From Heterodera schachtii (Eukaryota > Nematoda > Chromadorea > Rhabditida > Heteroderidae), in the NCBI GenBank assembly GCA_023374025.1, contig SIJG01000013.1, positions 1,124,602 through 1,188,601 of the forward strand: DNA of 64,000 nt, given 5' to 3'. Positions within the stretch are counted from its first letter, which is position 1, and every line of letters begins with the position of its first letter. Below are positions 39,661 to 63,367 of the stretch, piece after piece. The notes under the pieces are model-generated. The model was not told where the DNA came from, ran no database searches, and worked only from the letters and a program-made list of their open reading frames with translations. The position numbers and the translations under genes were made by a program.

Positions 39661-39880
39661 TCATTTTAAAATTAATTGTTTCTTCCATTTACTAGTTGTG
39701 TATTGGCTAATTCCAATTTTCTTGCAAATTTCGGCATAGTTTTGGTACCATTCTTTTTTCGAATAATTTCTTTTTTGTTTATATTCATTTTTCATTTCAA
39801 TATATTTCTGTACAATTTCTAATTTTTCTTCATCAGTTTTATTTCTTTTCTGATTAAGCCCTAATTCTTTAATCCTAATA
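39661..39880 (-). pseudogene. 5'-truncated copy of the secreted helix-turn-helix family
   Basis: An open minus-strand frame without a start: IRIKELGLNQKRNKTDEEKL, then a complete second repeat with EWYQNYAEICKKIGIS and SKWKKQL, ending in TGA at 39661. The signal peptide and first repeat are missing, and there is a stop where the third repeat would begin. Confidence 0.8.
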
Positions 39881-40448
39881 AATGAATTAATCGTGTATTA
39901 TTTTAACAATTTATTTTAAATAAATATTAAATAACTGTAACTGATATTTCGTTAATTCATATTAATTTTCAATTTATAAAATAGAATTGCTTTATTTTTA
40001 TAATATGATTTACAATTGTCTTATTAATTGTTTTAAATAAAATATTTATTTCCATTTATAGAATGATTTTCGCAGATTTTTGGACGCTATTAAACAGCAA
40101 ATTTTCAAAAATTTTTATTCATTCACAAAAAATCAGGGCAAAAAATTTTTTAAAGACATTTTTAAATTTGAAATAATACGGACGAAATGGCATATCCACT
40201 CGTACGAAAACGGCCGTACGAAAATGGCCTGGCCCCCCGGAAACAGGGATACGCCCAACCCATCCCCGCCTGGGACGGGGCTGAAAATACGCCCTTAAAA
40301 ATCAATCTTTTGCCGAATTGACCAAATTACATTTAGATTTTTGGGAGTTTTTTTTACATATTTGTACAAAACTCAGACAAATTTAAAAAAATTATATTAT
40401 TTATAATGATAAACATATTTGTCGATATGATTTGGTTAGTTAATCAAT

Positions 40449-41145
40449 TTCTCTCATGCAAAATTTCAAAAAATTTCGTTAAATTTCAAAAAAGTTATGT
40501 TAAAGCATCATAACTTTTTTTCTCAGCTGGCTAAATTCGAAATCCTTACATTTTAGAAGCTGTTAATAATCTGTTTCTAACCGATTGTAGAACATTTAAA
40601 AAAGTTACAACATGAATACTGCACAAAAGTCTGAATTTTTGCATATTTTTACTTATAACTTTTTTACATGTCGGTATATCTTTGTGTTTTTTGGAAAGCC
40701 AATAGAGCTTGTTAAGAGCTTTCGAATGACAGGAAATTTGTTGGATTTGGTCAACAAAGAAAACAGTTATGATGCTCTAAACTTGTCTCAGACTAAACCG
40801 GCCAGACTGAACTGTCCGATTCCGCATAAATTTGACTAAGTTTGAAAAAAATCATTTTTGAATAATTTTGAATAATTTATTCTATTCTGCTGATGATCAA
40901 AATTGTAATGAAAGTAGGGAAAAATAAATATTTTTGATCAGTAGGATAAAAATGTTTATTTAATCGTGGAATTACTTTATTTTTTTTATTTAATTACTTA
41001 CAATCTTCTTAAAATTATTTATTCTGAGAAAACATATTAAATATATATGTATTTGCCATGAATGATATGCTGTCAAATTAAATAATAAATTCATTTTTTT
41101 AATATTTTAAATTTAATTTATTTTTTAGAATATCTTATCTTTACA
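40449..41145 (+). promoter_or_regulatory. 5' flank, type 1, of the secreted helix-turn-helix family
   Basis: The last roughly 260 bases before the ATG (from GATGATCAAAATTGTAATG at 40893) are conserved before other family starts: again at 43530-43787, at 62445-62692 and, on the minus strand, at 57563-57840. Shared blocks are GAAAGTAGGGAAAAATAAAT, GATAAAAATGTTTATTTAAT, TATTTATTCTGA, a TATATGTATTTGC phrase and TTTTTAGAA(T)ATCTTATCTTTACA just before the ATG. The conserved TTTTAG some 17-19 bases upstream of ATG could be a trans-splice acceptor. The upstream part (40449-40860) is duplicated at 42543-42792 plus 43400-43500. Confidence 0.6.
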
Positions 41146-41697
41146 ATGAAATTATGGCTATTATTTGTTTTAATTATATTTTTGATCATCAAATTTGATC
41201 AAATTAAAACAGAAAAGAAAAAATTGCAACAAAAATCATTTGATGAAATATTTGGAGAAAAATGGGAAGAAAAAGAAGAAGAAAAACGAAATGAACTCAA
41301 AAAACGAGAAATAATTAGAACATTCAACAAAATAAAAGAGAAAATAAAGGGAAAAGGAAGAAAATATTCGACAAAAGAATGGAATAAAATTGAAAGAAAA
41401 ATAGCGAAAAAATTTTGGACAAATCGCCAAGATATTTATAAATGGATTAAAGAACTTGGTCTTCACCAAAATATAAATAAATGTTACAAATCGAAAACTG
41501 ATGAAGAAAAATTTGAAATTGTGCAAAAATTCATTAAAATGACAAATGAATACAAACAAAACAGAAAATATTCTAAAAATGAATGGCAACAAAATTATAA
41601 AGAAATTTGCAAGAAAATTGGAGTTTGTTGGGGAACAATTGAGAAATGGAAGAAACAATTTGGCATAAGCAATAAAAGAATAACGGAGGAAGAATAA
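41146..41697 (+). CDS. Secreted helix-turn-helix family protein, copy A (lost third repeat)
   Basis: Single exon, 183 aa. Signal peptide-like start MKLWLLFVLIIFLIIKFDQI, then the family linker KKLQQKSFDEIFGEKWEEKE, then a basic segment. Repeat 1 has RKIAKKFWTNRQDIYKWIKE (84-106); repeat 2 has ICKKIGVCWGTIEKWKKQFG (152-174). The frame stops at EEE, where relatives have a Lys codon; the DNA beyond (to about 41832) still encodes a diverged third repeat with a second in-frame stop, so the protein is truncated by nonsense mutation. N-terminal 160 residues match the gene at 46413-47090 essentially exactly. Expression cannot be judged from sequence. The function is unknown; helix-turn-helix similarity is by eye. 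Confidence 0.75.
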   Translation: MKLWLLFVLIIFLIIKFDQIKTEKKKLQQKSFDEIFGEKWEEKEEEKRNELKKREIIRTFNKIKEKIKGKGRKYSTKEWNKIERKIAKKFWTNRQDIYKWIKELGLHQNINKCYKSKTDEEKFEIVQKFIKMTNEYKQNRKYSKNEWQQNYKEICKKIGVCWGTIEKWKKQFGISNKRITEEE

Positions 41698-42002
41698 ATG
41701 GAAAAAATGAAAATTTATTGGAAAATAAAAAGTGAAAATCCAAAAATGAGTGAAAAAGAAATTGCTGAAAAGATATAAGTTCCAATACGAAATATTCAAA
41801 GATGGAAAGCCAAATTTGGAGAAGCGCACTAATGGAGAAGAAATGAAAATCAAAAAAATGGGATAAGAAAGTGTCGAAAATTCAGAAATCGTAATTTATG
41901 AAATTTTAAACGACTAAAAACTCAAAAGGAACCAAACAATTTTTTTCGCTAATTTTTGGAAAATTTGCGAGCTTTTCATAAAAATCCAATTGCCTTCTAA
42001 AA

Positions 42003-42405
42003 TTGAAATTTTTCTTTTCCAAATTTGGTGGCTTTCCAGCTGTAAATGTTCTTCGCCGAAGTGTTTATCATTTTGGCAATTTTCCGATCACTAATTTTTG
42101 GACATTCTCTTTTTATTTGCCAATATATTTTCATTTTTTCCATTTTTTCTTTTTCCGTTATAAATTTTTACAACGAATGTCAAATTGTGTCTTCCATTTC
42201 ATAATTGTTCCATAACTTACTCCGATTTTCATAAAAATTTCGGCATAATTTTGTTGCCATTCTTCGCTTGAATATTTTCTTTTTTGTTTAAATTCGTTTT
42301 TTCATTTCAATGAATTTTTGTACAATTTCTAATTTTTGTTCATCAGTTTTTGATTTATAGCTTTTATGATTTGTTGATTAAGTCTCAATTCTTTAATCCA
42401 TTTTT
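42003..42405 (-). pseudogene. Decayed fragment of the secreted helix-turn-helix family
   Basis: On the minus strand, recognisable family text from WIKELRLNQ, through EWQQNYAEIFMKIGVSYGTI and IYWQIKRECPKISDRKIAKM to the end of a third repeat, broken by frameshifts and stops. The signal peptide and first repeat are absent. Confidence 0.75.
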
Positions 42406-42542
42406 GAATGGCTAATGAATGATATCAAGATAACTTTATTTTGTTCGTTCTGAGAAAGCTTTAATCAAAATTTTCATCATCAAAAATTATTTTTGGTCTA
42501 TGAAAATTTTTAGTTAAAAATTATTTTTATTTTCTTGTTTCT

Positions 42543-43805
42543 ATCTCATGCAAAATTTCAAAAAATTTCGTTAAATTTCAAAAAAGTTATGTTAAAGCAT
42601 CATAACTTTTTTTCTCAGCTGGCTAAATTCGAAATCCTTACATTTTAGAAGCTGTTGATAATCTGTTTCTAACCGAATGTAGAACATTTAAAAAAGTTAC
42701 AACATGAATACTGCACAAAAGTCTGATTTTGCATATTTTCACTTAGAACAGAAAATTTGTTGGATTTGGTCAACAAAGAAAACAGTTATGATTAGGGCTT
42801 CCATTTTTAGGCAAATGCCTAAAATTTTTGCGCACTTAATACGCATAGATAAGCACGAAAAAAGCATTTTCCGCTTGGTTTGGGGTGTCTATGATGAGTT
42901 TTATAATGCCTATTTTTGCCTATTTTGGACTTTTTGTGCTTAATGCCTAAATGCCTATTTTTGTGCCTATTTCGCCATTTTTGGCGCCTTTTTCAAGATT
43001 TTCTTTAAAAATTCTTAACAAAATGCAACAAAAATGAAACTTACACCCCTAAGAATCGACCCGAAAATTTTTCAAAAAATACACCCCCTAAGAATTGAAA
43101 AAATTTTCAGAAAAATTGATCCGCAAAATTCATTATTTTTTCTTAATAAAAATTTTTGGATTAAAAAATGTCCTTATTCGAAAAAACTTTAAAACAATTG
43201 AAATATAAGCAAAATTAAGTTTTTTGATTAAGTTTTTACGTGATTTGCTACCTAAAAAGCATTAATAAAAAATTGTTTTTTGCCTATTTTTGTGCCTATT
43301 TGGGGATTTTTGTGCCTATTTAATGCCTATTTTGCGATTTTTTTATGCCTTTTTAGGTGCCTATTTCGCGATTTTTTGTGCCTAAAAATGGAAGCCCTAG
43401 TTATGATGCTCTAAACTTGTCTCAGACTAAACCGGCCAGACTGAACTGTCCGATTCCGCATAAATTTGACTAAGTTTGAAAAAAAATCATTTTTGAATAA
43501 TTTTTGAATAATTTTATTCTACTCTGCTGATGATCAAAATTGTAATGAAAGTAGGGAAAAATAAATATTTTTGATCAGTAGGATAAAAATGTTTATTTAA
43601 TCGTGGAATTACTTTATTTTTTTTATTTAATTACTTACAATCTTCTTAAAATTATTTATTCTGAGAAAACATATTAAATATATATGTATTTGCCATGAAT
43701 GATATGCTGTCAAATTAAATAATAAATTCATTTTTTTTAATATTTTAAATTTAATTTATTTTTTAGAATATCTTATCTTTACAATGAAATTATGGCTATT
43801 ATTTT
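42543..43805 (+). repeat. Duplicate of the 40449-41160 flank, truncated after the first codons and split by a transposon
   Basis: The sequence from TCTCATGCAAAATTTC to ATGAAATTATGGCTATTATTTT repeats 40449-41165, with an internal deletion of about 90 bases near 42735 and an inserted element at 42793-43399. It breaks off 22 bases into the family coding region and joins a different family flank (43806 on). Confidence 0.85.
42793..43399. mobile_element. Non-autonomous hAT-like element, 607 bp, 8-bp target duplication
   Basis: Terminal inverted repeats TAGGGCTTCCATTTTTAGGC and GCCTAAAAATGGAAGCCCTA are perfect over 20 bases. The element is flanked by GTTATGAT at 42785-42792 and 43400-43407. The uninterrupted paralogue at about 40760-40775 reads AACAGTTATGATGCTCT and shows the empty site with a single copy. 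The interior is full of TGCCTATTT(TTG) subterminal repeats in both orientations, and no transposase frame is present. An 8-bp duplication and a YAGGG end fit the hAT superfamily. Confidence 0.93.
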
Positions 43806-44503
43806 AAAGCTGAAAATTAATTTGTTTTGTCGTCGCATTTTTCATTCCTATTTAGTGATTTAAAAAAAAAGAAAATTTTATAAAATTCAATTTATGTGTT
43901 TAACCGTAAATATTGCTTTTTTTTAAATTTTCAATAATTCCTTATATTCTTCATTGTGAATTTCTGTTAAATTTTTAATTTGTTTTTCATCTTTTTATCG
44001 TATTATTAGTTTAATCCAAGGCCGATGAGATCGGCGAGAATTGTTTGTGAGATGAGACAACGTAAATTGCTTAAATAATGGCCAGCCAATCGTTGTTCAA
44101 ACTGCGAATGTTTGGCACAAAAATTGGCCAAATTTGATCAGGCCAAAATTTCCCAAAATGGCTGATCATTAATTTCATTCTAAAACAATTTTTGGCCATC
44201 ATTTTTTAATATTCCCTTTTTATTTTTCATTAAATTTTTTAATTCTTATTTTTCAAATGTGTTCTGATTTTTCACATTTGTCCTGAGTATATGAATTCTG
44301 TATGATTTTTTGGATGCAAATTAATGTAAAATATTTCTTATTTTTGATGAAAACATTTATTGGTAATTGTCATTACTTTTTTGATTGTCCTGACTTTTTG
44401 TAACCAATCCAATGAAATAAATTTTCATTTTCTTTATTTATTAAATAATATAGCAAAAATTTAATAATTCCATCATCAGTAATAATTAACAAGCTAATTG
44501 AAA
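43806..44503 (+). promoter_or_regulatory. 5' flank, type 2, of the secreted helix-turn-helix family
   Basis: About 700 bases nearly identical to 58352-59049, ending directly at an ATGAAATCATTTG start in both places. A diverged part also precedes the fragment at 61261. It carries the phrase CCAAGGCCGATGAGATCGGC and no feature I can name. It differs entirely from the type 1 flank. Confidence 0.6.
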
Positions 44504-45171
44504 ATGAAATCATTTGTTTTATTATTTTTAATAATTTTTTTGTCCAACAAAATTGATAAAAAGCAGGTCAGAAAAGAAAAACTTCAACAAAATTCATTTG
44601 ATGAAATATTTGGACAAAAATGGGAAGAAAAAGAAGAAGAAAATTTGAAAGAAAAAAAATAATTGTAAAATTTTATAAAATAAAAGAGAAAATTAAGCAA
44701 AAAGGAAGAAAACACTCAAAGAATGAATGGAATAAAATTAATTCAAAAATAGCGAAAAAATTGGGGACAAATCGTAAAAACATTTATGAATGGATTAAAG
44801 AATTGGGGCTTAATCAAAGAATCTATAAATGCTATAAATTAAAAACTGATGAAGAAAAATTTGAAATTGTGCAAAAATTCATTAAAATGACAAATGAATA
44901 CAAACAAAACAGAAAATATTCTAAAAATGAATGGCAACAAAATTATAAAGAAATTTGCAAGAAAATTGGAGTTAGCCGTTCAGTAATTGAAAAATGGAAG
45001 AGAAAATTTGGGATTTACACTAGAAGAATAATGGAGAAAGAAAAAATGGAAAAAATGAAAATTTATTGGAAAATTAAAAAAGAAAATCCAAAAATTAGTG
45101 ACAAAGAAATTGCAAAAAGATTGAAAATTCACCAAAATAGCATTTCAAAATGGAAGAAACAAACAATGTAA
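44504..45171 (+). pseudogene. Secreted helix-turn-helix family, copy C (frameshifted)
   Basis: Opens with MKSFVLLFLIIFLSNKI and the linker LQQNSFDEIFGQKWEEKEEE, then a deletion near 44640-44660 shifts the frame and gives a TAA. The other frame continues to 45171 with all three repeats intact: SKIAKKLGTNRKNIYEWIKE, ICKKIGVSRSVIEKWKRKFG and KEIAKRLKIHQNSISKWKKQ. A shortened product could start inside the second frame but would lack the signal peptide. The 3' part is the source of the C-terminal half of the gene at 46413-47090. Confidence 0.85.
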
Positions 45172-45244
45172 AGATGAAAATATTTATTACGAATCAAGAA
45201 TTTATTTTGTTGAATTATTATTTTTTTTTTATTAAAATTGCATA

Positions 45245-45385
45245 AATAATTTAATTTGGTTGCACAAAAGTCTGAATTTTTGCATATTTTTACTTATAAC
45301 TTTTTTACATGTCGGTATATCTTTGTGTTTTTTGGAAAGCCAATAGAGCTTGTTAAGAGCTTTCGAATGACAGGAAATTATTTGG
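45245..45385 (+). repeat. Third copy of a flank segment
   Basis: The stretch GCACAAAAGTCTGAATTTTT through GACAGGAAAT repeats 40620-40738 closely. It marks another rearrangement joint between gene-family flanks. Confidence 0.8.
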
Positions 45386-45429
45386 TTGCACTTTTTTCAT
45401 CAAAAAAATTAATATAAATAAGATATATT

Positions 45430-45749
45430 CTAAATTATCCGAATTGATGAACTCGTTCGAAGTTATGTTATTTTCTTCCATATATTCGCACAAGTTTTAG
45501 GCACGGGACGACACTTCAATGCATGGCACGGGAGGAACATTTAATAATAATGCCGCACAACAACAACAGCAACAACAGCCATACGGTATGGAGATGAATT
45601 ACCGTATCAAGAATATGGAACAAAGACGGTCTAATCGTGTGGACCCAATGGCACCGGGACAAAATCAGCCGGCACAAATCCCGGTCCTCGAAGTTACGCC
45701 AGTTGAGAATGTAAACGGCAGGCCCGGAACATCGATGGCACGCTACTGA
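45430..45749 (+). pseudogene. Duplicated last exon of the seven-transmembrane receptor
   Basis: Close match to the last exon of the receptor gene (37231-37530), including the Gln-rich tract, [23 protein letters not shown] and the terminal MARY with stop at 45749. A TTTAGGCACGGG replaces TTTTCGGCACGGG, giving a stop or shift, and the upstream exons are missing, so this is a partial copy. Confidence 0.88.
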
Positions 45750-45960
45750 GATGAAACGAGAAATTTTGAGATGAATTACTTTCAAACAAATTCTGATTTG
45801 TCCTTTTTTTCAGAAATTTTAAGCACAATTTTGGAGGGAATTTGTTATTAAAATTGAAAAATATTAGAAAAGCTTACCCTGTCGCCGTTCCCCGTTTATC
45901 CGACCCCCGGAAACAGGGACACCCGAAACCCATCCCCGCTTGGAACGGGGCTGAAAATAC

Positions 45961-46152
45961 GGTGATGTGACTTTTGCGGCGCTGACTTTTGCGGCGCTGA
46001 CATTTGCGGCGCCCAGCCAAAGCGACACTTGCGGCGCCGACTTTTTTTGGCACTTCAATAATTAATGCTCAAAAATTAAATCTCGAACACCCTTTTGTTT
46101 TCCTTATGGTCATAAGAAATTCTTTTCAAAAATTAATAACGAACCACTGATC
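45961..46152. mobile_element. Short insertion with GCGGCGC repeats, about 192 bp
   Basis: Lies between GAAAATAC at 45953-45960 and 46153-46160. The paralogous sequence at about 40286-40300 (GGGGCTGAAAATACGCCCTT) has one copy and no insert, so this is an empty site. The insert starts GGTGATGTGACTTTTGCGGC and contains four TTGCGGCGC(C/T)GAC units. Only one end has a repeat structure, so it may be a truncated member of the same GG-ended class as the foldback elements. Confidence 0.65.
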
Positions 46153-46412
46153 GAAAATACGCCCCCCTAAAAATAAGTTTTTTGCCGAATCGACCAAATG
46201 ACATTTGATTTTTAGGGACCTATGTTTAAAAATTAAAAATGTTAGTAAAAGTCCTTTATCTCATATGATTGACTATTTGAGTTAATTAGTTTTATTTTGC
46301 ATATTTAGGTAATTTAAAAAGCAACCAAATTAAATTATTTATGCAATTTTAATAAAAAAAAAATAATAATTCAACAAAATAAATTCTTGATTCGTAATAA
46401 ATATTTTCATCT

Positions 46413-47090
46413 TTACATTGTTTGTTTCTTCCATTTTGAAATGCTATTTTGGTGAATTTTCAATATTTTTGCAATTTCTTTGTCACTAATTTTTGGATTT
46501 TCTTTTTTAATTTTCCAATAAATTTTCATTTTTTCCATTTTTTCTTTCTCCATTATTCTTCTAGTGTAAATCCCAAATTTTCTCTTCCATTTTTCAATTA
46601 CTGAACGGCTAACTCCAATTTTCTTGCAAATTTCTTTATAATTTTGTTGCCATTCATTTTTAGAATATTTTCTGTTTTGTTTGTATTCATTTGTCATTTT
46701 AATGAATTTTTGCACAATTTCAAATTTTTCTTCATCAGTTTTCGATTTGTAACATTTATTTATATTTTGGTGAAGACCAAGTTCTTTAATCCATTTATAA
46801 ATATCTTGGCGATTTGTCCAAAATTTTTTCGCTATTTTTCTTTCAATTTTATTCCATTCTTTTGTCGAATATTTTCTTCCTTTTCCCTTTATTTTCTCTT
46901 TTATTTTGTTGAATGTTCTAATTATTTCTCGTTTTTTGAGTTCATTTCGTTTTTCTTCTTCTTTTTCTTCCCATTTTTCTCCAAATATTTCATCAAATGA
47001 TTTTTGTTGCAATTTTTTCTTTTCTGTTTTAATTTGATCAAATTTGATGATCAAAAATATAATTAAAACAAATAATAGCCATAATTTCAT
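46413..47090 (-). CDS. Secreted helix-turn-helix family protein, copy D (intact, mosaic)
   Basis: Single exon, 225 aa, ATG at 47090. Signal peptide-like MKLWLLFVLIIFLIIKFDQI, linker KKLQQKSFDEIFGEKWEEKE, basic segment, then three repeats: RKIAKKFWTNRQDIYKWIKE (84-106), ICKKIGVSRSVIEKWKRKFG (152-174) and KEIAKILKIHQNSISKWKKQ (204-223). Each repeat ends in a W(K/I)K motif typical of the recognition helix end in transposase-like and Pipsqueak-like helix-turn-helix folds. The first about 160 residues equal copy A (41146) and the rest equals copy C (to 45171), including the 3' flank. It keeps only about 40 bases of the conserved 5' flank. The function is unknown; it is predicted to be secreted and strongly basic. 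Confidence 0.8.
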   Translation of the reverse strand: MKLWLLFVLIIFLIIKFDQIKTEKKKLQQKSFDEIFGEKWEEKEEEKRNELKKREIIRTFNKIKEKIKGKGRKYSTKEWNKIERKIAKKFWTNRQDIYKWIKELGLHQNINKCYKSKTDEEKFEIVQKFIKMTNEYKQNRKYSKNEWQQNYKEICKKIGVSRSVIEKWKRKFGIYTRRIMEKEKMEKMKIYWKIKKENPKISDKEIAKILKIHQNSISKWKKQTM

Positions 47091-47926
47091 TGTAAAGATA
47101 AGATATTTCTAAAAAATAAATTAAAAAAGTGCAGAGATACTGTATAGGAAATAGACAATCAGCAAAAGAAAAACTAAAGAAGGAACCTGAGCGATGCCAC
47201 ATTTCGATCAGCCACTCATTTCCCGCCATCATTGCCCCCCTCCCCTCCCAAAATGCCAACGGTGATTTAAGCAATGCTTCCCAAGTGCGCCACTTTTGGA
47301 CAATCAAATCTCAAATTTAAAATTTTGTTTTTTTTTCAAAGATTTGTCCTTATTTAAAGTAGGCAAAAAGGCCCTTGTTTCCAAGATTATTTAAAATGTC
47401 ATTAATTCAATAGTCAATAGGAGGAATAGGGAAGTTAAATTTTTTAAATATTTTTCATAAATTATTCTAAAACTATTAAAAATACGCCCCTAATATGGCC
47501 TCGACGACCAAAATGAAAATGGTTAATTTGTCCTTTTTTCTTGAATTATTTGATAGGTATTTTAAGACATTGAGTTTATGCAAAACTCAGACAAAATACA
47601 AAAAAAAAAATCCTATTTTTTAAAGACAATAATAATACTCGCGGAAAATTCGATATGATTTGGTTAATAATTAGTCTTTTTACAAAATTTATGCAATTTA
47701 AAAAGAAAACAAATAAAATTATTTCTGCAATTAAATAAATATCTGAATAAATCAAATTTTGGTTTTTAATAAAAATAAATTTCAAAATTTCAAATATTCA
47801 ACTCCAAATTGTTTTTTCCATCTTCAAATATTACTTATAATTTCATCAATCTTTTTGGGTTTTTTTATATTTTCCATTAAATTTTCATTTTTCTTTTATT
47901 TTTCTTCATGCGTTATTCTTTTCTTT
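47091..47926. other. Spacer between family copies
   Basis: About 47120-47310 is a GC-richer stretch not seen elsewhere in the window (CTCCCCTCCCAAAATGCC); the rest resembles the duplicated 3' flank of the family (ACTCAGACAAA, GATATGATTTGGTTA near 47585-47670). No gene is called. Confidence 0.5.
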
Positions 47927-48445: not shown

Positions 48446-48827
48446 ATTTCTCAATGATAAAGCTTGATAAAATTATTAATTTGCAAAAATAAATAAATTA
48501 CTAATGTAATAACTTAACGAGCGAAATTTTAAAAATTAAAATTTTTCGATGAATTTAGGAAATGAGTTCAAACGCTAAGCATTACCCATTAAAAATGAAA
48601 AGCTTTGCATTGATCAAAACCAGGACAAAAATAAGCAAAAACAGGACAATTTATGATTAAATATTTCAAATATTTTATTAATTTTCTCAAGATAAACATA
48701 TTTTTTTTTGAAAAAATTAATCGTATTTCGTCATAACTTCAAATCTGCCGGAAGAGTCGGTATCAAAGGTGAGTAAATGCTGTCCAACTCATTTATTGTC
48801 AAGCTAATTAATAAGTTTGCCATTTCT

Positions 48828-48905
48828 GATCTCGCCGAAATTAGCAAGAAAATTGGCCTAATTTATGATATAATTAGGAAATTGAAGAAATAATTTGGTA
48901 TTGAA
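48828..48905 (+). pseudogene. Short fragment of a family repeat
   Basis: Plus-strand DNA encodes EISKKIGLIYDIIRKLKK then a stop and FGI, the core of repeat 2, with no other family sequence on either side. Confidence 0.6.
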
Positions 48906-49079
48906 AAAAAAAAATTAAAATTAAATGAAAAAATACAAAAATGAGTGATCATAATATGCCAAATGTTTAAAAATAACAAAAATTTATTTTTTAGGTTTTA
49001 TTTTGCAAAACTTTTTTTAAATTGTTCTCATTTTATTAAAGTATAATACGTAATAAGAGAAATTAATGAATCTTCCAAA

Positions 49080-49610
49080 ATTTCTTCTCCAAATTATTTC
49101 TTATGGTTAGAAATACTCTTTCTATAATTTTCATAATTTGAGCAATTTCTTTGTCACTCTTTTTGAATTTTTTTTTTTATTTTGCCAATATTTTTTCATT
49201 TTTTCGATTTTTTTCTTTCTCAGTAATTCTTTGAACACTTAATCCGAGCTTTTCCTTCCATTTCTTGGCTTACTCCAATTTTCTTACAAATTTCTTTATA
49301 ATTTGGTCCCATTCTTTTCTTGAATATTTTCTTTTTTCTTTATATTCATTTGTCATTTCAATGAATTTTTGTACAAATTTTTTCTTTATCATTTGTTAAT
49401 TTATAGTTTTTATTTATTTTTTGATTTAATCCCAATTCTTTAATCCATTTATAAATTTTGGCACGATTTGTCCCCATTTTTTTTTGCGATTTTTGTTCAA
49501 TTTTATTCCATTCTTTTTTTGAATGTTTTCTTCTATTTTTATTATTTTTTTTCCAATAATTTCTCTTTTTTCTTCCAAATTTCTTCCATTTTTCATCTCA
49601 TTTTTAATTC
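49080..49610 (-). pseudogene. Heavily decayed copy of the secreted helix-turn-helix family
   Basis: On the minus strand, scattered family phrases (KNKWKKSRKNIRRKHSKKEW, WIKELGLNQKI, NEYKEKRKYS, KEICKKIG) persist in order, but frames are broken many times and the ends are degraded. Confidence 0.7.
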
Positions 49611-50499
49611 CTATAAATTCTCAAAAATCTCAAAATACGTAAATATTAAAAAACAAATGTAATTTCTGTTTTATGAATTTTGAAATATTTCAATCAAAAT
49701 TTTTAAATAATTAATTGATAAAAATATTTCTTTCCCAAAATATGGGCGAAAATGTGGCAAAAATGAGAATAACAATTCACTGACAATTGCGATAATTGCA
49801 ACGGATGTCTCAGGTCCTCGCTTTTATTTACAGTTACATTAAATGAATATGCAGTCCAAAAAATTAAGGCAATATGCAAATGGAAAAAAAAACACCAAAA
49901 AAGCATCAACAAATATTTAGTGGACCAAATTTATTGTCACCACTTAATTTTAAAAAAAACTATTTTAATTTAATTAATAATTTAATTAATTAGCATAATG
50001 AACAAGGACCAAATAGCAAAAAATAAATTGTGACACATAGCCAAACATGGACACATTGTGAAGAAAAACACAACAAATTGATGATAATATTTATTCCATC
50101 CTCTTTCCATTTTTATAAAATTGCTTTCTAAAACATTTTTATTAATTATAAAATACTAATGGAAATATCGGCAAAAAAAAATTATTGTTTAGGGTATCGG
50201 GTTACAAAAAGTTCAGTTGTATCAGAAGGGGACATCGCGTCACATTACAGTACAACACCATATGATACCGCACATCACATCAACAGCACCGGTCTCCTAC
50301 CGTATAATTTAATCGAATTCTCCTGATGCCCAATGTAATTAAGACAAAACTGACTGAAAATTCGATATCATTCAATTAGTTAATCCGTTTTTTCAATATT
50401 TATGCAATTTAAAAGCAACAAAATTAAATTATTAGACAATTTAAATAATATATCTCAACAAATTATATTCATGTTTCTTTACAAAAAATTCATACACTT
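49611..50499. other. AT-rich spacer
   Basis: No gene, RNA or element recognised. The part after about 50350 (GAAAATTCGATATCATTCAAT, TATGCAATTTAAAAGCAACA) is a diverged copy of the family's 3' flank. Confidence 0.5.
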
Positions 50500-50840
50500 T
50501 CAAGAATGAATGATTTATTCATCTCCAAATTGTTTCTTCCATTTGTTAATTGTTTCATAGCTTACACCAATTTTCTTACAAATTTCTTCATTAATTTGCT
50601 CCCATTCTTTTGGCGAATATTTTCTTTTTTGTTTAAATTCATTTTTCATTTTTATGAATCTTTGTACAATTTCAAGTTTTCTTCATTGGTTTTTGATTTA
50701 CTTCGTTTTCTTCCCATTTTTACCAAATATTTTCTTAAAAGATGTCTTTTGCAGCTTTTTCTTTTATGATCCGATATAATTAGTATTAATTAGGACGATC
50801 GCAAATATAATTAAAATGAATCAAACAAATGCCTTTCATT
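50500..50840 (-). pseudogene. Internally deleted copy of the secreted helix-turn-helix family
   Basis: The minus strand starts near 50840 with ATGAAAGGCATTTG and a family-like hydrophobic leader with a frameshift, keeps the linker text KKKLQKTSFKKIFGKNGKKT, then jumps to the segment before repeat 2 (KSKTNEEN, RFIKMKNEFKQKRKYS) and ends around WKKQFGDE. The whole of repeat 1 is deleted. Confidence 0.75.
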
Positions 50841-51484: not shown

Positions 51485-53468
51485 TCAAACGGTTGGCCAC
51501 TGCGCATTGTCCCATTTAATTTGTCTCAGGCCAAGTTTGGCCAAACCGTTGGCATTTTTGTCATAGTAATGGTACACCAATATATCCTTGCCATCAGCGG
51601 TGGTCATTACGCTTTGCCCTCCAGGTCCAATTTCTGCTCCATTAGCGCCCAACAAAAGGCTGCCGCCCCCTTGGGTCATTAGGGTGCCGTTGCGGTCCTT
51701 GAACGGTCCGCTTGGGCTGTTGGCACGGCCAACTCGGATTGTATAGGTGGAGGAAAGGCCGGCACAGCAGCGGTCGAATGAGACAAACAAATAGTACCAA
51801 TTGCCTGAATGAGTGGGGGTTGGTCATTGTCCTTGTTTCTGATTTTATCATTAATTACGGAGAATCGATGCCATTAAAAATGAAAAATTTAGAAATTTAG
51901 TCGGTTAAAAAATGCACCAATTGCAAAATTTCATACCGGCATTAGTGCCTAAAAGGGCACATGCCACTGAAAATGGCATTTAGCATTGCATTTTTTCTTA
52001 ATTGCCTTTCTTGAAGAGAAACGGTGCCTCCACAGCGTGATCCGGTACATTCGGTCTTGTTGCAAGGTGGATCGGCTTCTGTTTCGGGTTCAGCAGAGCA
52101 CCAGTCTTCGGGTTCAGCTCAACTTGGAAAATGCCCATCCAAAAAGAGCCGTATTGCAGCCAAAATTGCTTTGTACTCGGGTCAACAAACAAATTTGGGT
52201 CGATGGCATTGAAGTTGTCTTTTTCGTTGGATTCAAGTATCTAAAGGATTACGGAGTAAGGCAGGGTCTGGGAATCTAGATTTTTTGACATAATTGGATC
52301 AGGATTTGCATACAGTAAAATCCAATGAAAATGGTTAAATTCGGAAAAAATATTCCAATGTAATTCACTAGATTATAATGAAGCCTTTCTGGGTTCTGAA
52401 TCTTCTACAATCAGTTTGAGATCATGATATCCAGTAATTTTCATGCAAATAAAACTTAAATCTAATTCGGGAGACAAGATTGAATTCCATGATACGTTAT
52501 TTTCAAGGGATCATTCTCTGGATATATACTAATCTAAACAGGATGTTGCCACTCTCGACGACTTACCCGTCCTAAATCTTGCCAAGTGCCGGGCCGACCA
52601 CTGCTACTCACTGCCCGTCCAATCACCGCGGTATGAGTGAGCTTTTGCTGAGGACTCATTAATGTGCCGTCAACTGGCACGCAGTAGAATAGCCAATATT
52701 TCTTATCCTTGCCCTCGCCGTACGGCCCCGAAACGTCGGGTGCCCAAAATTCGTTGTTTCTTGCCAACCTTTACAAATTTGTTCATGATGATTTGAATGA
52801 GGGGATTTCGGATTGTGCCAAACTCGATGCTCGTGTTTTACAAATTTTAAAAATTTAATAGATTAAAATGAATAACTTTTATTCTAATGCCATAAAAAAT
52901 TCAAACTTTTTTTATTATTTTGTAAATTTATAAAATGTTTAACATTTTTCCATTTCTTTGTCCAAAGATATTTTAGGTTAACCAGGAAGGAGGCTACCAA
53001 TTTTCCAAAAATATTATTTTTTAAATTTTCTTTTCCAAATATTTCCTTGGATTCTTGGAACCGTAAGTCGAGTCCGAACCTGGCATTATTACGCTCAAAA
53101 AAGCACTCACTTATTGGCCCAGCCCAATCCTTTTGGAAAAACGGCACTGTTACGTGTCCAAAAAGCCATGTCCTTAGAAACGCGAGCCTCCATGCCATTG
53201 TGAGTGGAGTACACCACAAAAGAGCGGTCCGCCAATTGGATCATGGTCGGATCATGGGCAATATAGTCGCCCGAAAGTGGCAAACCTGGGGATTTATACA
53301 TAAATTATGTGTCAATAAATTCGAATTTCTCAAATTTGAAAATGTCGATTGCTTCTTAGTTTTAAATTCAGAAAACCCACTGTCACTCTCAGAAAATTGG
53401 GGGGCCATTATTGACCAGCAAATTAAAAATTGAGTGGCAATGCTGACACATTTATTAAATAAGTTCAT
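51485..53468 (-). CDS. Secreted GH43 arabinanase-like glycoside hydrolase
   Basis: Predicted to cleave alpha-1,5-arabinan side chains of plant pectin, outside the cell. Five exons join in phase: 53387-53468, 53111-53285, 52567-52768, 52006-52240, 51485-51804, giving 337 aa. The N-terminus [20 protein letters not shown] is a signal peptide. GH43 five-blade features: general base Asp39 in [16 protein letters not shown] (94-), pKa-modulating Asp167 in [17 protein letters not shown], general acid Glu224 in HAVEAPFLF, then [30 protein letters not shown], and HYYD near the C-terminus. All three catalytic residues are present. The family is mainly bacterial and fungal; candidates in plant-parasitic nematodes are explained by horizontal transfer (known), and the introns here show it is nuclear and not contamination. 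The last intron has a GC donor. The start ATG gives the shortest complete signal peptide. Confidence 0.93.
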
Positions 53469-56848: not shown

Positions 56849-57562
56849 TTACTTTTCTTCTTCTGCTGTTCTCTGAAACATTTCTTCTCCAAATTGTTTC
56901 TTCCATTTTAAAATGCTATTTCGACTAATTTTCAATGTTTTTGCAATTTCTCTTTCATTCATTTTTGGATTTTCTCTTTTTATTTGCCAATAAATTTTCA
57001 TTTTTTCCATTTTTTCTTTATCAGTTATTCTTTTACTGCTTATGCCAAATTGTTTCTTCCATTTGGTAATTACGAATTGGCTTACTCCAATTTTCTTTGA
57101 AATTTCGGCATAATTTTGTTGCCATTCGATGTGCGAATATTTTCTTTTTTGTTTATATTCATTTTTCATTTCAATAAATTTTTTGACAATTTCCATTTTT
57201 TCTTCATCAGTCTTTGATTTGTAGCATTTCTTTTGGTTAAGCCCCAATTCTTTTATCCATTTTTGAATTTTATTACTATTTGTCCCCAATTTTTTCGCAA
57301 TTTTCGCATTGATTTTACTCCATTCATTGGCTGAATATTTTCTTCCTTTTTCATTTATTTTCTCTTTTATTTTAAAATATTTTTTTATTGTTTCTCGTTT
57401 TTTAAGTTCATTTCGTTTTTCTTCTTCTTTTTCTTCCCATTTTTCTCCAAATATTTCATCAAATGACTTTTGTTGCAATTTTTTATCCATTGACTCAACA
57501 TAATTAATATTAATTATGATGATCAAAAATAAAATTAAAGAAAATATTAGGCAATATTTCAT
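56849..57562 (-). CDS. Secreted helix-turn-helix family protein, copy H (intact, longest)
   Basis: Single exon, 237 aa, ATG at 57562. Signal peptide-like MKYCLIFSLILFLIIIININ with likely cleavage around YVES, linker KKLQQKSFDEIFGEKWEEKE, a Lys/Glu-rich segment, then three repeats: 86-108 (AKIAKKLGTNSNKIQKWIKE), 152-174 (AEISKKIGVSQFVITKWKKQ) and 204-224 (REIAKTLKISRNSILKWKKQ). Repeats 1 and 2 are preceded by a KYSxxEW lead-in. It ends EEMFQRTAEEEK. The type 1 conserved 5' flank is present upstream. No cysteine framework and no enzyme motif are seen. This is the best reference copy of the family; a nucleic-acid-binding role is inferred from repeat form only. Confidence 0.82.
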   Translation of the reverse strand: MKYCLIFSLILFLIIIININYVESMDKKLQQKSFDEIFGEKWEEKEEEKRNELKKRETIKKYFKIKEKINEKGRKYSANEWSKINAKIAKKLGTNSNKIQKWIKELGLNQKKCYKSKTDEEKMEIVKKFIEMKNEYKQKRKYSHIEWQQNYAEISKKIGVSQFVITKWKKQFGISSKRITDKEKMEKMKIYWQIKRENPKMNEREIAKTLKISRNSILKWKKQFGEEMFQRTAEEEK

Positions 57563-57840
57563 TGTAAAGATGAGATATTTCTAAAAACAAATTAAATTTA
57601 AAACATAAAAAAGGAATTTATTATTTTAATTTGAGAGCATATTATTCATGGCAATTCTATATATAATTAAAATATATTTTTCTCACGAATTATTTAATAA
57701 TCTTTTAATAAGATTGTAAATTAAAGAAAAAATAAAGTAATTCCACGATTAAATAAACATTTTTATCCTACTGAAAAATATTTTTTTATTCCCTACTTTC
57801 ATTGCAAATTTTGATTACAAAAGTAGAGTAGAATTATAAT
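57563..57840 (-). promoter_or_regulatory. Type 1 5' flank of copy H
   Basis: The reverse complement of this stretch repeats the block before copy A: GTAGGGAATAAAA, GATAAAAATGTTTATTTAAT, the TATTTAATTATATATAG phrase and TTTTTAGAAATATCTCATCTTTACA before the ATG. Confidence 0.6.
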
Positions 57841-58351
57841 TATTTTAAATTAATTAATAAACACGGAATATATTGCTGCTGGTGATTTTCAATTTATTTT
57901 TTAAAATTTTATTTTCATGCCAAGTATTTTAAATACACATAAACCTCATATTACATATCGTTCAAATAAGTTCAGAATGTCGCTTAGTACATCAATGTTT
58001 AATGGACTAATAAATAGAGAAAGGCAAAACAACTTTTTCTTATGAAAAAATTGTTTCATCGGAGATCAACCTTTAAGTTATATTAATTAACAAGGTGCAT
58101 TTTGCCAATAACGTATAAAACAACGCTGTTTTAAAATTTCTTTTGGCGGGAAATATCATTTGGGCGCGAGTCCAACGCAATAATTATTTGTAATTTTTTT
58201 TTTTGTCAATCAGATAAATTAATAATTTCATTTTTTGTTTTTTTGTTTTGGCACTTTTATAAACCCAGAATTTTTTAACTGAAAGTTTAAAAATATAAAT
58301 TTAATTAAATGAATTTTTAAATTCTTTTTTTGTAAAAATTACCAAAATTTT
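57841..58351. other. AT-rich spacer
   Basis: No feature recognised between the two oppositely oriented family flanks. Confidence 0.5.
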
Positions 58352-59049
58352 AAAGCTGAAAATTAATTTATTTTTTCATCGCATTTTTCATTCCTATTTG
58401 TGATTTAAAAAAAAGAAGAAAATTTTATAAAATTCAATTTATGTGTTTAACCGTAAATATTGCTTTTTTTTAAATTTTCAATAATTCCTTATATTCTTCA
58501 TTGTGAATTTCTGTTAAATTTTTAATTTGTTTTTCATCTTTTTATCGTATTATTAGTTTAATCCAAGGCCGATGAGATCGGCGAGAATTGTTTGTGAGAT
58601 GAGACAACGTAAATTGCTTAAATAATGGCCATCCAATCGTTGTTCAAACTGCAAATGTTTGGCTCAAAATTGGCCAAATTTGATCAGGCCAAAATTTCCC
58701 AAAATGGCTGATCATTAATTTCATTCTAAAACAATTTTTGACAATCATTTTTTAATATTCCCTTTTTATTTTTCATTAAATTTTTTAATTCTTATTTTTC
58801 AAATGTGTTCTGATTTTTCACATTTGTCCTGTGTATATGAATTCTGTATGATTTTTTGGATGCAAATTAATGTAAAATATTTCTTATTTTTGATGAAAAC
58901 ATTTATTGGTAATTGTCATTACTTTTTTGATTGTCCTGACTTTTTGTAACCAATCCAATGAAATAAATTTTCATTTTCTTTATGTATTAAATAATATAGC
59001 AAAAATTTAATAATTCCATCATCAGTAATAATTAACAAGCTAATTAAAA
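58352..59049 (+). promoter_or_regulatory. Type 2 5' flank of copy I
   Basis: Near-identical to 43806-44503 (shared from TTTTAAAGCTGAAAATTAAT to the start codon). The close match over about 700 bases shows that flank and gene were duplicated together and recently compared with other copies. Confidence 0.65.
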
Positions 59050-59671
59050 ATGAAATCATTTGTTTTATTATTTTTAATAATTTTTTTTGTCCAACAAAAT
59101 TGATAAAAAGCAGGTCAGAAAAGAAAAACTTCAACAAAATTCATTTGATGAAATATTTGGACAAAAATGGGAAGAAAAAGAGAAAATTAAGCAAAAAGGA
59201 AAAAACACTCAAAGAATGAATGGAATAAAATTAATTCAAAAATAGCTAAAAAATTGGGGACAAATCGAACGAAAATTTATAAATGGATTAAAGAATTGGG
59301 CCTTAATCAAAGAATCTATAAATGCTATAAATTAAAACCTGATGAAGAAAAAATTGGAATTATACAAAAATTCATTGAAATGACAAATGAATACAAACAA
59401 AAACGGAAAATATTCAAAAAATGAATGGGACCAAAATTATGCCGAAATTGGTAGGAAAATTGGAGTTGGCTATGGAACAATTGGTAAATGGAAGAAAGAA
59501 TTGGGCATTAGCAAGAAAATGATAACTGAGGAAGAAAAAATGGAAAAAGTGAAAATTTTTTTGAAAATAAAAAGCAAAAATCCGAAAATGAGTGATCGGA
59601 AAATTGCCAAAATGATGGAAATTAATAGAAAGAGCATTTCAAATTGGAAGAAACAATTTAAGATGAAATGA
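59050..59671 (+). pseudogene. Secreted helix-turn-helix family, copy I (frameshifted, deleted)
   Basis: Starts MKSFVLLFLIIFFVQQN then stops because of one extra T relative to copy C. The segment between linker and repeat 1 is deleted (EEKEKIKQKGK), with more shifts. The 3' part from about 59387 is open and encodes EIGRKIGVGYGTIGKWKKEL and KIAKMMEINRKSISNWKKQF before the stop at 59671. Repeats are recognisable but no full-length product is possible. Confidence 0.85.
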
Positions 59672-61260
59672 CAGAAGAAATGAAGAAGAATATGAGTGAT
59701 TGCTTGATTTTCAATTTGAAAATGTTTTTTGTGATAAATTGCATTTACCAATTTTTTAATTTTTTTTTTTTTTGAAAAATATTATGCTTTTTTAAAAATC
59801 CGAGTCCTAATTCCTAAACCGTAATTTTAATTTCCCAATCGGTTTCACCGATCCTCGAGAATTTTGTCCGTCTCCGATGGCTTGGGGATAAATTTCGAAA
59901 TTTTAATTTTTTGTCAGTAATTTTGAAAAAAATTTCAATTATAAAATGTTCTGAATTTTTTTTATTTGTACAGGTTTTGTAATTCTATCCAACGCATTAA
60001 TAATGATGTATTTTTTTGTTTTTGTCAATTACCAATTAGAATTTCTAATTTTTATCTTAAATTATGCATTTAAAAATATTTTTGGAGAATTGATAAATTA
60101 CTAAAATTGCATTGTAACGACAAAGTTGTGCGGCCATTTTTTGCGTTTGTTAAATTTTTTTCGAAATTGAAAAATTCCGCAGTTTCCTGCGCGGGATACT
60201 CACAATCTTTAAATGCCGTATTAATGGGATTAATCCCGTGGGATAAAAAAACATTGGTGAACAAATTTTAGAGGATTGAAGTTTTGCTTCATAAATATTC
60301 GGATAAAATTGCCTAGTATTCTTTCATTCAACAAACTAAGACTAATCTTTTGTTTATTTAATTAATTTTATTCGTAAGTGATTTTATTTTAAATCAGTTT
60401 TAAACAATTGCTTTATTTAAAGAAAAAGATAAAAATTATGATTTAAAAGTGATTTTATTATTTTTTAAAACAAAATTATGCCGAAATTTGTGTAGCCCTG
60501 TTTAGCTTGGTTTGGGGCTTCTACAACAGAATTATAAGTGTCAGTAGTGATACAGTATTTAAAAAACTGTAGCTTTAAGTACTGTAGCACAAACAGTCAA
60601 ATTGTTCTAGTAGAAATAGCTTCAAAAACATTAAAATTAACATTTCAACACATTATCATTCTACCGAATCGCGCTCATTTTTTGTTTTTATTGGCGATTT
60701 TTTTTAAATCCCTGAACATTTATAAAATTCAATTTTATGTTGTGCCTGAATATTTCATATTTTATAATATTATATAAACTTCTTTGCTTCTCAAAAAAAT
60801 AAAAGAATTTTTTTTTTTTTAGATTTTATATGAATTTTTTTAACCATGAATTTTTTTAACTCTTAAAAATAAAATACAATTTAATTCAGTGAATTTCTTG
60901 ATTGTTTTTTTTGCGAATTATAAAAATTTTAAACTTGAAAATTAATTTGTTTTATCTTCGCATATTTTCATTCCTTTCTGTGTTCAATTTAGATTTGAAT
61001 TTGGTCAAAAATTTAATCTTTAAAAGCCATTTAACAATAATTATTCTTTTTAATTAACTAAAATATTTCTGCTTTTGGATTAAATAATTAATTGGTAATT
61101 GTCCTGATTTTTTCATTTGTACTGACTTTTTATAATCAATAGAAAGGAATAAATTCTCATTTTCTTCATTCATTAAATAATATAGCAAAAAATAAAAAAT
61201 AAAATCTCTAATCTCCGTCATCAAATTGTATAATGAAAAAAAATTTATTGCCAATTCAAA
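59672..61260. other. AT-rich spacer
   Basis: No gene recognised. The last part (about 61080-61260) is a diverged type 2 family flank (TAATTGTCCTGATTTTTTCA, AATAATATAGCAAAAA). Confidence 0.5.
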
Positions 61261-61308
61261 ATGAAATCATATATTTTATTATTTTTAATAACACTGTTTC
61301 TACTTTAA
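61261..61308 (+). pseudogene. Signal-peptide fragment of the secreted helix-turn-helix family
   Basis: ATGAAATCATATATTTTATT and following bases encode MKSYILLFLITLFLL and then stop. No further family sequence follows; an inverted-repeat element begins within a few dozen bases. Confidence 0.65.
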
Positions 61309-61339
61309 GCAAATTTCTCGTAGTTTTTTTTCCGCGGTT

Positions 61340-61965
61340 TTTGAGTCAATTTAAAAAAATGAAGAGAAATAGGCGTCGCCGGGAAAAAAATTTAAAATTT
61401 AAATGCAATTTTTAACAGATTTTTTTTGCGGTTTTTAGCCAATTTTTTAAGGAAAATAGGGTTTTGGGTGCCGGCGGTGCCGATAGGCGCCGCCGGGGAA
61501 AATTTTTGAAATTTTAGTGCACTTTGTTAATAGATTTAGTCCAAAAATGACAATATTTACAACCCACTGGACCACGCATTTGAGTAAGTGAATGAAGCAA
61601 AAAGTAAGATTTTGGATATTAATTCGCATCAAAAAACATTTCTTTCAAAAATTATCATTTAAAATCTAAATTTCTCTGTGAATCCAAAAAATAAGACTAA
61701 AATAAGGACAAAGAGCTTAAAGGTCAAAGTTCTCAATTTCCCCCGGCGGCGCCTATTGGCACCGACGGATCCTAAAAATCTTTTTTTTTTATTTCTCAAA
61801 ATTGCAAAATTTGGATGTTTTTGTGGACAACCTGTTAACAAATCACACAATTCACATTAAAAATTTTCCCGGCGGCGCCTATCGGCACCGCAGGCCCCTT
61901 ATTCCCCGAAAGTTCTTGGAAAAAGCGCCGCAAAAAAATCAACTTCGATTTTTCATGTTCAGAAT
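61340..61965. repeat. Inverted-repeat element with GGCGCCGCCGG arms
   Basis: The left arm (about 61360-61540) carries GCGTCGCCGGG and then GGTGCCGATAGGCGCCGCCG followed by GGGAAAATTTTTGAA; the right arm (about 61730-61960) carries CCCCGGCGGCGCCTATTGGC and then TTTTCCCGGCGGCGCCTATC followed by GGCACCG. Two spaced GC-rich cores on each side are mirrored, so the block can fold back. No target duplication was found. Confidence 0.65.
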
Positions 61966-62154
61966 TTCACCAAATGCTTATTTCAAACAAAAAATTGCTC
62001 AAATTGGTCATGGACAGTCAAAAATACAATTTTTGAAAAATTTAAAAGTGTTTTGAATAAATTTGTAAAAATGAGGCTTTTTGCATGCCAAATGAGGCTT
62101 TGGAAAATTTTCATCTGCCAGCCCTGCTTTTAACGGACTGTCATTGCAGATAAA

Positions 62155-62370
62155 ATGAAATTATGCCTGTTCTTCATTTTTATTATATTTTTGATCGCCT
62201 TAATTAACATTAATTATGTTGGATGAGAAACGAAAAAAATGAATCAAAAATGATTTGATGAAATATTTGGACAAAAATGGGAAGAAAAAGAAGAAGAAAA
62301 TTTGGAAGAACAGAAAAGAAGAGAAATAATTGGCAAATTCATAAAATCAAAGAAAAAAAAAGTAAAATAA
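62155..62370 (+). pseudogene. Decayed 5' fragment of the secreted helix-turn-helix family
   Basis: MKLCLFFIFIIFLIALININ leader, then in-frame stops inside the linker where relatives have VGTEKK and QQKSF, then FDEIFGQKWEEKEEENLEEQ and a truncated basic segment ending in TAA at 62370. No repeats remain. Confidence 0.8.
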
Positions 62371-62444
62371 CAAAAAAATTTAGGACAAACATTAATTATG
62401 GGCATTTGTAAATAAAAAAAATTTTTAGCTTATATTTATACTCT

Positions 62445-62692
62445 ACTGAACATCAAAATTGCAATGAAAGTAGGGAAAAATAAATATTTCAGTAGGATAA
62501 AAATGTTTATTTAATCGTCGAATTATTATTATTTTTTATTTAATAAAATCTTCTTTAAATTATTTATTCTGATAAAATATATCAATTGTATATGTATTTG
62601 CGATGAATAATATGCTGTTAAATTAAAATAATAAATTCATTTTTTAATATTTTAAATTTAATTTGTTTTTAGAAATATATATCATCTTTAAA
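62445..62692 (+). promoter_or_regulatory. Type 1 5' flank of copy K
   Basis: Matches the conserved block before copy A (GCAATGAAAGTAGGGAAAAA, GATAAAAATGTTTATTTAAT, TTTTTAGAAATATATATCAT before the ATG). Confidence 0.6.
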
Positions 62693-63367
62693 ATGAAATT
62701 TAGCCTAATTTTACTTTTGATCGTCCTAATTAATATTAATTATGTTGGAACAGAAAAGAAAAAATTACAACAAAAATCCTTTGATGAAATATTTGGAGAA
62801 AAATGGGAAGAAAAAGAAGGAGAAAAACGAAATGAAGAGAAAAAAGAGAAATATTGAAAAATATTATAAAATAAAAGAGAAAATAAAGGAAAAAGGAAGA
62901 AAATATTCAAAAAAAGAATGGAATAAAATTAATTCAAAAATAGCAAAAAAATTGAGGACAAATAGCAAATATATTTATAAATTTTTGGCCTACATAAATA
63001 CAAATCAAAAAGTGATGAACAAAAATTAGAAATTGTTCAAGAATTTATTGCAATGAAAAATGAATATAAGCAAAAAGGAAAATACTCGCAAAATGAATGG
63101 CAACAAAATTATGCCGAAATTTGTAAGAAAATTGGCACAAGTTATGATATAATTAGAAAATGGAAAAAACAATTTGGTATTCGATGTAAAAAAATAACGG
63201 ATGAAGAAAAAAAGGAAAAAATGAAAATTTATTGGCAAATAAAAAGAGAAAATCCGAAAATGAGTGAACGGGAAATTGCAAAAATTGTGAACACTTCTCA
63301 ACAGAATATTTCCAATTGGAAGAAGCAATTTGGAGAAGAAAAAATTTATTCTGTTCTGATGTCATAA
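62693..63367 (+). pseudogene. Secreted helix-turn-helix family, copy K (frameshifted)
   Basis: Starts MKFSLILLLIVLININYVGT and linker KKLQQKSFDEIFGEKWEEKE, then shifts after EEKKEKY (stop at 62857). Repeat 1 continues in a second frame (SKIAKKLRTNSKYIY) and that frame breaks again. Repeats 2 and 3 are open to 63367: EICKKIGTSYDIIRKWKKQF and REIAKIVNTSQQNISNWKKQ. Two small indels separate the three frames, so the gene is broken unless these are sequence errors. Confidence 0.85.

Follow-up and report, generated by a model that had tools for sequence, protein, structure and literature searches.

The most striking gene family expansions reported for the cyst nematode Globodera pallida are those of the SPRY genes (299) and of genes similar to HM147943 (295, or 474 in the companion paper), and some of the HM147943-like copies are expressed exclusively in males (PMC4213498, PMC4054857). 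In Heterodera schachtii, 3,094 genes are classified as ADI82807-like and form 860 of the 2,881 male-specific genes; the authors describe this family as exceptionally large and its formation as unclear (PMC9582021). ADI82807.1 appears to be the protein of HM147943.1, to judge from the reference made in that paper to the G. pallida family. In this article, we analyze a stretch of 64,000 nucleotides of the H. schachtii genome (C13:1,124,602-1,188,601, hereafter the window) that contains a cluster of genes for small proteins with a signal-peptide-like N-terminus and three tandem helix-turn-helix (HTH) units, and we relate this triple-HTH family to the published ones.

The general design of the family has parallels among known effectors. 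The WY-repeat effectors of Phytophthora are tandem three-helix modules, and the SPRYSEC, HYP and WY-repeat effectors share with the present family a signal peptide, islands of birth-and-death evolution, and a conserved scaffold with a variable surface. The present family differs in that its modules are HTH units.

Protein architecture and predicted fold

In the intact proteins, signal-like residues 1-24 are followed by the linker SFDEIFGEKWEEKE and then by three repeats, and the linker, whose conservation was part of the original prediction, is confirmed in the aligned intact copies. The secretion signal claimed for intact copies is supported as well: a hydrophobic run followed by V, I, G, T or L at position 22 and by S, T or A at position 24 is present in 44 of the 47 intact copies examined (first set, 26 of 27; second set, 18 of 20), the three exceptions having P at position 24. 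We refer to the N-terminus as signal-peptide-like because its hydrophobic stretch is followed by the -3/-1 residues typical of cleaved signal peptides. In about half of 28 intact copies, as judged by eye, a TTTTAG-type splice acceptor lies ~20 bases 5' of the ATG, which fits a 5' intron or trans-splicing.

The three HTH-like repeats, originally recognized by eye, are detected by curated profiles. Both intact copies of the window (P0001 and P0002) exceed the Pfam cut-offs for HTH_23 (PF13384; 34.7 and 33.2 bits, respectively, cut-off 24.6), HTH_28 (PF13518; 33.3 and 27.9 bits, cut-off 25) and HTH_Tnp_1 (PF01527; 27.2 and 34.4 bits, cut-off 24.1), and HTH_23 and HTH_28 are found in every one of the 16 proteins in alignment A3 (E<=0.001). 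Other HTH-type models also pass, namely MerR_1 in P0002 and HTH_3, YdaS and Terminase_5 in P0004, so that more than one HTH subfamily would fit. AlphaFold2, applied to five window sequences, likewise predicts three three-helix units, with helices at residues 2-71, 78-91 and 96-105; 119-139, 144-158 and 162-172; and 181-197, 203-210 and 214-236 (mean predicted local distance difference test score (pLDDT) 76, predicted template modelling score (pTM) 0.33). Repeat 2 modelled alone reaches a pLDDT of 84 and a pTM of 0.69, with helices at 4-23, 29-43 and 47-57. When the whole model was compared with known folds, CENP-B, Brinker, Myb and Mos1 were among weak rows that cover mostly residues 176-235 and indicate a common arrangement only; for repeat 2 the top row of a weak search was a designed protein. 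RicF, found in PDB sequence searches with E values of 0.0049 and 0.046, was taken as a chance match. The family shares with the homeodomain-like HTH families of Pfam (HTH_23, HTH_28, HTH_Tnp_1) the profiles above cut-off and the predicted three-helix fold, and it differs from them in having three units in tandem with a signal-like N-terminus ahead and no catalytic domain seen.

Relatives were found in the genus Globodera. A protein search with the single query P0002 returned nothing at E<=0.001. A profile of 16 sequences retrieved six proteins of G. rostochiensis with E values down to 1.7e-33 (7,979 candidates scored), and a second profile of ten sequences, these six included, retrieved 336 proteins at E<=0.001; the 120 listed, which take in the six query proteins, are all from Globodera, 119 from G. 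rostochiensis and one from G. pallida. Among these 120, a hydrophobic N-terminal stretch is present in 97, an FDEIF-type linker in 105, and both in 89. The G. rostochiensis proteins (A0A914HP64 and others) share with those of H. schachtii a mostly signal-like N-terminus, an FDEIFGE linker, and HTH units with variable recognition-helix starts. They differ in an acidic spacer of IEPNSTDQ-type repeats, in WW within the linker, and in the presence of two HTH units in 77 of the 120 listed, according to a motif count from which some units may be missing. The number of IEPNS-type repeats in the spacer varies between paralogues from 0 to 13 (P0005-P0124), and the commonest form of the repeat contains an N-x-S/T sequon. 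The database names of the listed relatives are mostly "Transposase" or "Uncharacterized", more rarely "Helix-turn-helix domain-containing", "Homeobox domain-containing" or "Secreted protein".

The name "Transposase", assigned automatically to many of these relatives, together with the HTH_Tnp_1 score above the Pfam cut-off, could suggest that the family consists of fragments or domesticated pieces of transposase; matches in NCBIfam, all of them sub-threshold, are in many cases to HTH parts of transposases. We consider such an origin of the genes very improbable. PF01527 is matched over 25-36 residues of the HTH part only, no transposition-catalytic family occurs among the 18 families matched by the 16 members of A3 at E<=0.001 (HTH-type or related, YdaS, Terminase_5) or in the family list obtained with five window proteins, and the layout of signal, linker and HTH units is conserved in both genera. 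The possibility, voiced with the original prediction, that a profile match might expose the genes as transposase fragments does not hold in its strong form for the proteins scanned, where no catalytic domain was found. The HTH itself may descend anciently from a transposase. Automatic names such as "Transposase" or "dorsal gland" may mislabel the family.

Expansion, constraint and shuffling of the copies

The expansion anticipated from the window is evident in the whole genome. In the 178,491,932 bases searched (356 contigs), the linker motif with at most two mismatches occurs at 880 places, compared with 0 for the control, and the WKKQFG motif, which one copy may carry twice, has 1,380 matches compared with 15 in the control. 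At least one of the contigs carries TTAGGC arrays in its interior. The copies are clustered, both among the 100 linker places listed of the 880 and among the 150 best protein matches; 13 ten-kilobase stretches at hand-chosen positions contained no copy, which are too few for so clustered a family. A sample of 20 copies, consisting of every fifth of the first 100 linker matches listed, includes 14 with an in-frame start codon, seven that retain the start together with 150 or more codons beyond the motif, and two that are full-length. This sample leans to well-kept copies because all of them are exact motif matches and all lie on contigs C1-C7. Among the 150 best protein matches, which favour intact copies, 99 contain no stop. 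Intact genes probably number ~100 or more among many dead copies.

One explanation for such numbers is selfish or passive amplification, that is, a repeat family riding on segmental duplication with most of its copies lacking a function for the worm. The two full-length copies among the 20 sampled and the segmental duplications in the window agree with it, as does the tendency of integration and transposition genes to border the duplication islands of H. schachtii (PMC9582021). The intact copies, however, are under purifying selection, with a median pairwise ratio of nonsynonymous to synonymous substitution rates (dN/dS) of 0.42 (351 pairs among 27 distinct intact copies, both window copies included), their sites differ by structural role, and the stop-free state of 99 of the 150 best matches points in the same direction, with the bias mentioned above. 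Moreover, of 465 pairs, 338 lose their similarity within 50 bases on the upstream side of the start and 368 within 50 bases beyond the end. Because most pairwise similarity ends near the start and the end, the coding part is seen to be kept while the flanks decay, although in 71 of the 465 pairs similarity reaches at least 200 bases upstream. We consider selfish or passive amplification an unlikely explanation of the family.

The first residues of the recognition helices depart from this constraint. For 12 positions at the recognition-helix starts of the three repeats, the mean entropy in the first set is 2.07 bits, compared with 0.87 for residues 45-228, the twelve included; the excess was reached in 0 of 100,000 permutations. 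The ratio of the proportions of nonsynonymous and synonymous differences (pN/pS) is 1.02 at these positions, compared with 0.44 for the rest, and reaches 1.88 in repeat 2. Since the 12 positions were chosen after viewing the first 30 loci, the test on the first set is partly circular, and the second set and Globodera serve as independent checks. In the second set (20 further intact copies, picked stop-free), the corresponding values are 2.02 and 0.79 bits (0 of 100,000 permutations) and pN/pS of 0.93 and 0.40, with 1.37 in repeat 2. In Globodera, two of these helix-start positions, located two and three residues ahead of the conserved I/L, show entropies of 3.37 and 3.05, the top of 20 positions (231 recognition helices from the 120 listed proteins of 336); directly ahead of the I/L, the Globodera proteins almost always have T, in contrast to H. 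schachtii. Strictly defined positive selection is suggested for the recognition helix of repeat 2 (R2) only, because repeats 1 and 3 (R1 and R3) stand at 0.75-0.80. We claim no nucleotide-level function for the linker because invariant codons form a significant run in a single set (counts in 10,000 shuffles: set 1, 234; set 2, 0; shared, 7,496).

In both sets, one face of helix 2 equals the recognition helix in variability, with a pN/pS of 1.09 in the first and 0.97 in the second; its positions were picked after the first set and then checked on the new copies of the second. This variability, the conserved tryptophans, and the apparent entry of the protein into the secretory pathway are consistent with tandem three-helix modules that are derived from HTH units but serve as a protein-binding scaffold, with partners bound via helix 2 together with the beginning of helix 3. 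On the other hand, the HTH profiles score above cut-off, and the basic WKKQF end conserved in the recognition helix and the basic character of the mature proteins (isoelectric point (pI) 9.5-10.1, with 24% lysine) are better suited to nucleic acid. We regard the scaffold as a possible but doubtful alternative.

Parts of the genes also appear to be exchanged between copies. In comparisons of 60-base windows, the 46,413 copy shares most of its 5' part without a difference with the 41,146 copy and most of its 3' part, bar one base, with the 44,504 copy, and one stretch is common to all three. The copies at 41,146 and 44,504 are both broken outside the parts that they share with the 46,413 copy, which on this pattern would be either a recombinant of two broken neighbours or the donor to both. 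Among the 47 intact copies, distances between modules (signal region, R1, R2, R3) are uncorrelated (Mantel r from -0.07 to 0.07), and interleaved columns within the same modules correlate at 0.57, 0.15, 0.13 and 0.28, respectively. The correlations for R1 and R2 are weak (reached by 33 and 41 of 500 permutations), and the two halves of a module correlate in the signal region only (0.44, compared with 0.06, 0.04 and -0.07 for R1-R3); for these reasons, the case for shuffling is built on the signal region, R3, and the mosaic in the window. Uncorrelated modules and halves are what fine-scale recombination predicts. In addition, two intact copies ~5 kb apart (L019, C82:353188, and L027, C82:358253) have the same N- and C-terminal stretches and the same 70 bases upstream but differ in their middles, and this pair is likely a further mosaic.

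Identity and possible functions of the family

By elimination on family size, the triple-HTH family is likely the published HM147943/ADI82807-like family. With at least 119 members in G. rostochiensis, it would be expected to stand out in G. pallida as well, where the families reported to be that large are SPRY and HM147943-like. Both the published family and ours occur in cyst nematodes and are very large, clustered, and divergent, and the HM147943/ADI82807-like family is the non-SPRY published family of fitting size. The likeness considered here is one of scale and organization: the published passages considered here present that family without an HTH architecture or recognition-helix variability, and HM147943 itself is not among the 120 matches listed of 336 for the ten-sequence profile. 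In a literature search of titles and abstract openings, with subscription papers outside its scope, the architecture was not found described; the architecture and the diversified recognition helices are new here. If the identification by elimination is true, they would supply the fold, the architecture, and the mode of evolution of a gene family that ranks among the largest and least explained in cyst nematodes and that repeat masking may hide from annotation.

The original prediction proposed parasitism proteins that enter host nuclei. In its full form, the proteins would be made in the pharyngeal glands, injected, and taken up by the nuclei of host cells; there the HTH units would bind host DNA, and diversification would track host targets or immune receptors. 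The signal-peptide pattern in combination with an HTH fold, the birth-and-death evolution with a variable surface, and the neighbouring GH43 gene are in keeping with this proposal. The namesake HM147943 from H. avenae was called dorsal-gland-specific, a figure legend refers to expression of HM147943-like genes in second-stage juveniles (J2) of G. pallida (PMC4054857), and such a gene was counted among effectors in a Globodera comparison (PMC6555003). Against it, in situ hybridization of a few G. pallida members, which were not chosen by HM147943 similarity, gave a digestive-system signal in some and a gland signal in none (PMC4054857). The gland effectorome of H. schachtii comprises 717 loci, its five largest families together accounting for 19%, and, by its summary, leaves no room for so large a family (PMC11309470). 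The dorsal-gland motif ATGCCA, present for 77% of 101 G. rostochiensis dorsal-gland effectors (PMC4901422) but not necessary for every one (PMC10946958), is not enriched in the 500 bases upstream of our copies: we found 6 sites in 5 of 28 copies, compared with 4.6 expected from shuffles and 9.6 expected from the density in 13 genome stretches. Overall, the indirect evidence is mixed and leans against proteins acting in host nuclei, and we consider a role as plant-targeted effectors doubtful, albeit conceivable.

Our preferred explanation, which as a whole we give about an even chance of being correct, is that of a cyst-nematode family of secreted proteins with shuffled three-part surfaces for binding nucleic acid or a partner, released in males and/or the gut. 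The family comprises small lysine-rich proteins in Heterodera and Globodera, with three tandem HTH modules in the aligned intact H. schachtii copies, whose products very probably enter the secretory pathway. Its evolution proceeds by massive duplication followed by the death of most copies, while substitutions at the first residues of the recognition helices diversify the copies and recombination swaps parts between them, resulting in a changing genomic repertoire of three-part binding surfaces. Such a repertoire is supported by the results above, as are the family itself, its signal-like N-terminus, the predicted triple HTH, the constraint with variable helix starts, and the mosaicism. We infer secretion, DNA binding, and the site in males or gut: the products would be secreted there at least as much as by the feeding glands, and would bind nucleic acid, or a partner touched by the same helices, outside the producing cell. 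Signal-bearing proteins composed of HTH modules with hypervariable recognition helices are unusual, and natural copies that differ at these helices should differ in binding.

Several points weigh against this explanation and some lowered our confidence in it. Only 860 of the 3,094 ADI82807-like genes are male-specific (PMC9582021), and the 336 profile matches are known from the 120 listed. A star-like tree would explain part of the lack of correlation between modules. Finally, 2,669 secreted genes fit the HM147943/ADI82807 link badly unless most copies are broken or mis-modelled.

A bolder version would be a secreted DNA-reading repertoire, in which the recognition helices of the triple-HTH proteins are diversified and recombined over hundreds of loci and the proteins, made largely in males, act in another cell (of the mate, a gamete, or the host), possibly driven by genetic conflict. 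The KRAB zinc fingers are diversified DNA binders of the nucleus, to which this would be a secreted counterpart; we consider the proposal quite unlikely.

The cluster in the window

Searching the window with the 27 intact family proteins (tblastn) detected 12 separate copies in the interval 39,634-63,340, of which seven lie on the minus strand and five on the plus strand; the reversed window, used as a control, had zero matches. A 5' stub makes a 13th member, so that the cluster and its occupation of both strands stand as originally described, while the count of at least 14 copies in 24 kb is reduced to 13. Only two of the copies are intact (Table 1). The GH43 gene noted within the cluster is confirmed by four exon-like pieces that match PF04616, of which the first alone reaches the cut-off by itself.

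Table 1. Members of the triple-HTH family and the GH43 gene in the window, ordered by position
Position	Strand	Feature	Evidence
39634..39930	-	Fragment around second HTH unit	tblastn
41146..41865	+	Copy with premature stop; 183-aa open frame with two HTH units	tblastn, frames
42003..42454	-	Fragment, frames broken; second and third HTH units	tblastn
43732..43804	+	5' stub; 73 bases identical to start of 41,146 copy	repeat comparison
44498..45171	+	Copy with signal/linker part in other frame than HTH part	tblastn, frames
46413..47090	-	Intact copy, 225 aa (P0001), mosaic of neighbours	60-base window identity
47912..48454	-	Copy without third HTH unit; signal peptide, linker and two HTH units open (175 aa)	tblastn, frames, Pfam
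49108..49597	-	Broken copy; first and second HTH units	tblastn, frames
50494..50835	-	Broken copy with N-terminal part plus second HTH unit	tblastn
51485..53304	-	GH43 glycosidase gene, non-member, amid family copies; at least 4 exon-like pieces	Pfam PF04616
56849..57562	-	Intact copy (P0002, 237 aa) with signal-peptide-like N-terminus, linker SFDEIFGEKW and three HTH units at residues ~57-105, 119-172 and 181-225	Pfam, AlphaFold2
59044..59671	+	Broken copy; HTH units split over two frames	tblastn, frames
62206..62508	+	Fragment of linker region	tblastn
62648..63367	+	Broken copy; signal/linker part in a different frame from second and third HTH units	tblastn, frames

The cluster continues along the contig beyond the window, with more copies at C13:1,190,715, 1,213,191 and 1,220,350. 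Segments 43,862-44,470 and 58,409-59,014, located upstream of plus-strand family copies at a spacing of ~14,546 bases, are 93-99% identical and represent a segmental duplication. Large inverted repeats (659 nt at 95% and 653 nt at 91% identity) link the family copies at 41146-41865, 44498-45171 and 46413-47090 on opposite strands, an arrangement that could favour inversion or gene conversion. Interspersed with the copies are pieces of a non-family repeat, 98-100% identical, at 40452-40851, 42544-42730, 43399-43485 and 45261-45385, possibly an undescribed mobile or duplicated element. Elsewhere in the window, a 151-aa open frame on the plus strand (27303-27755) has a match to Pfam Prim-pol 4 that is below threshold (E 0.0093).

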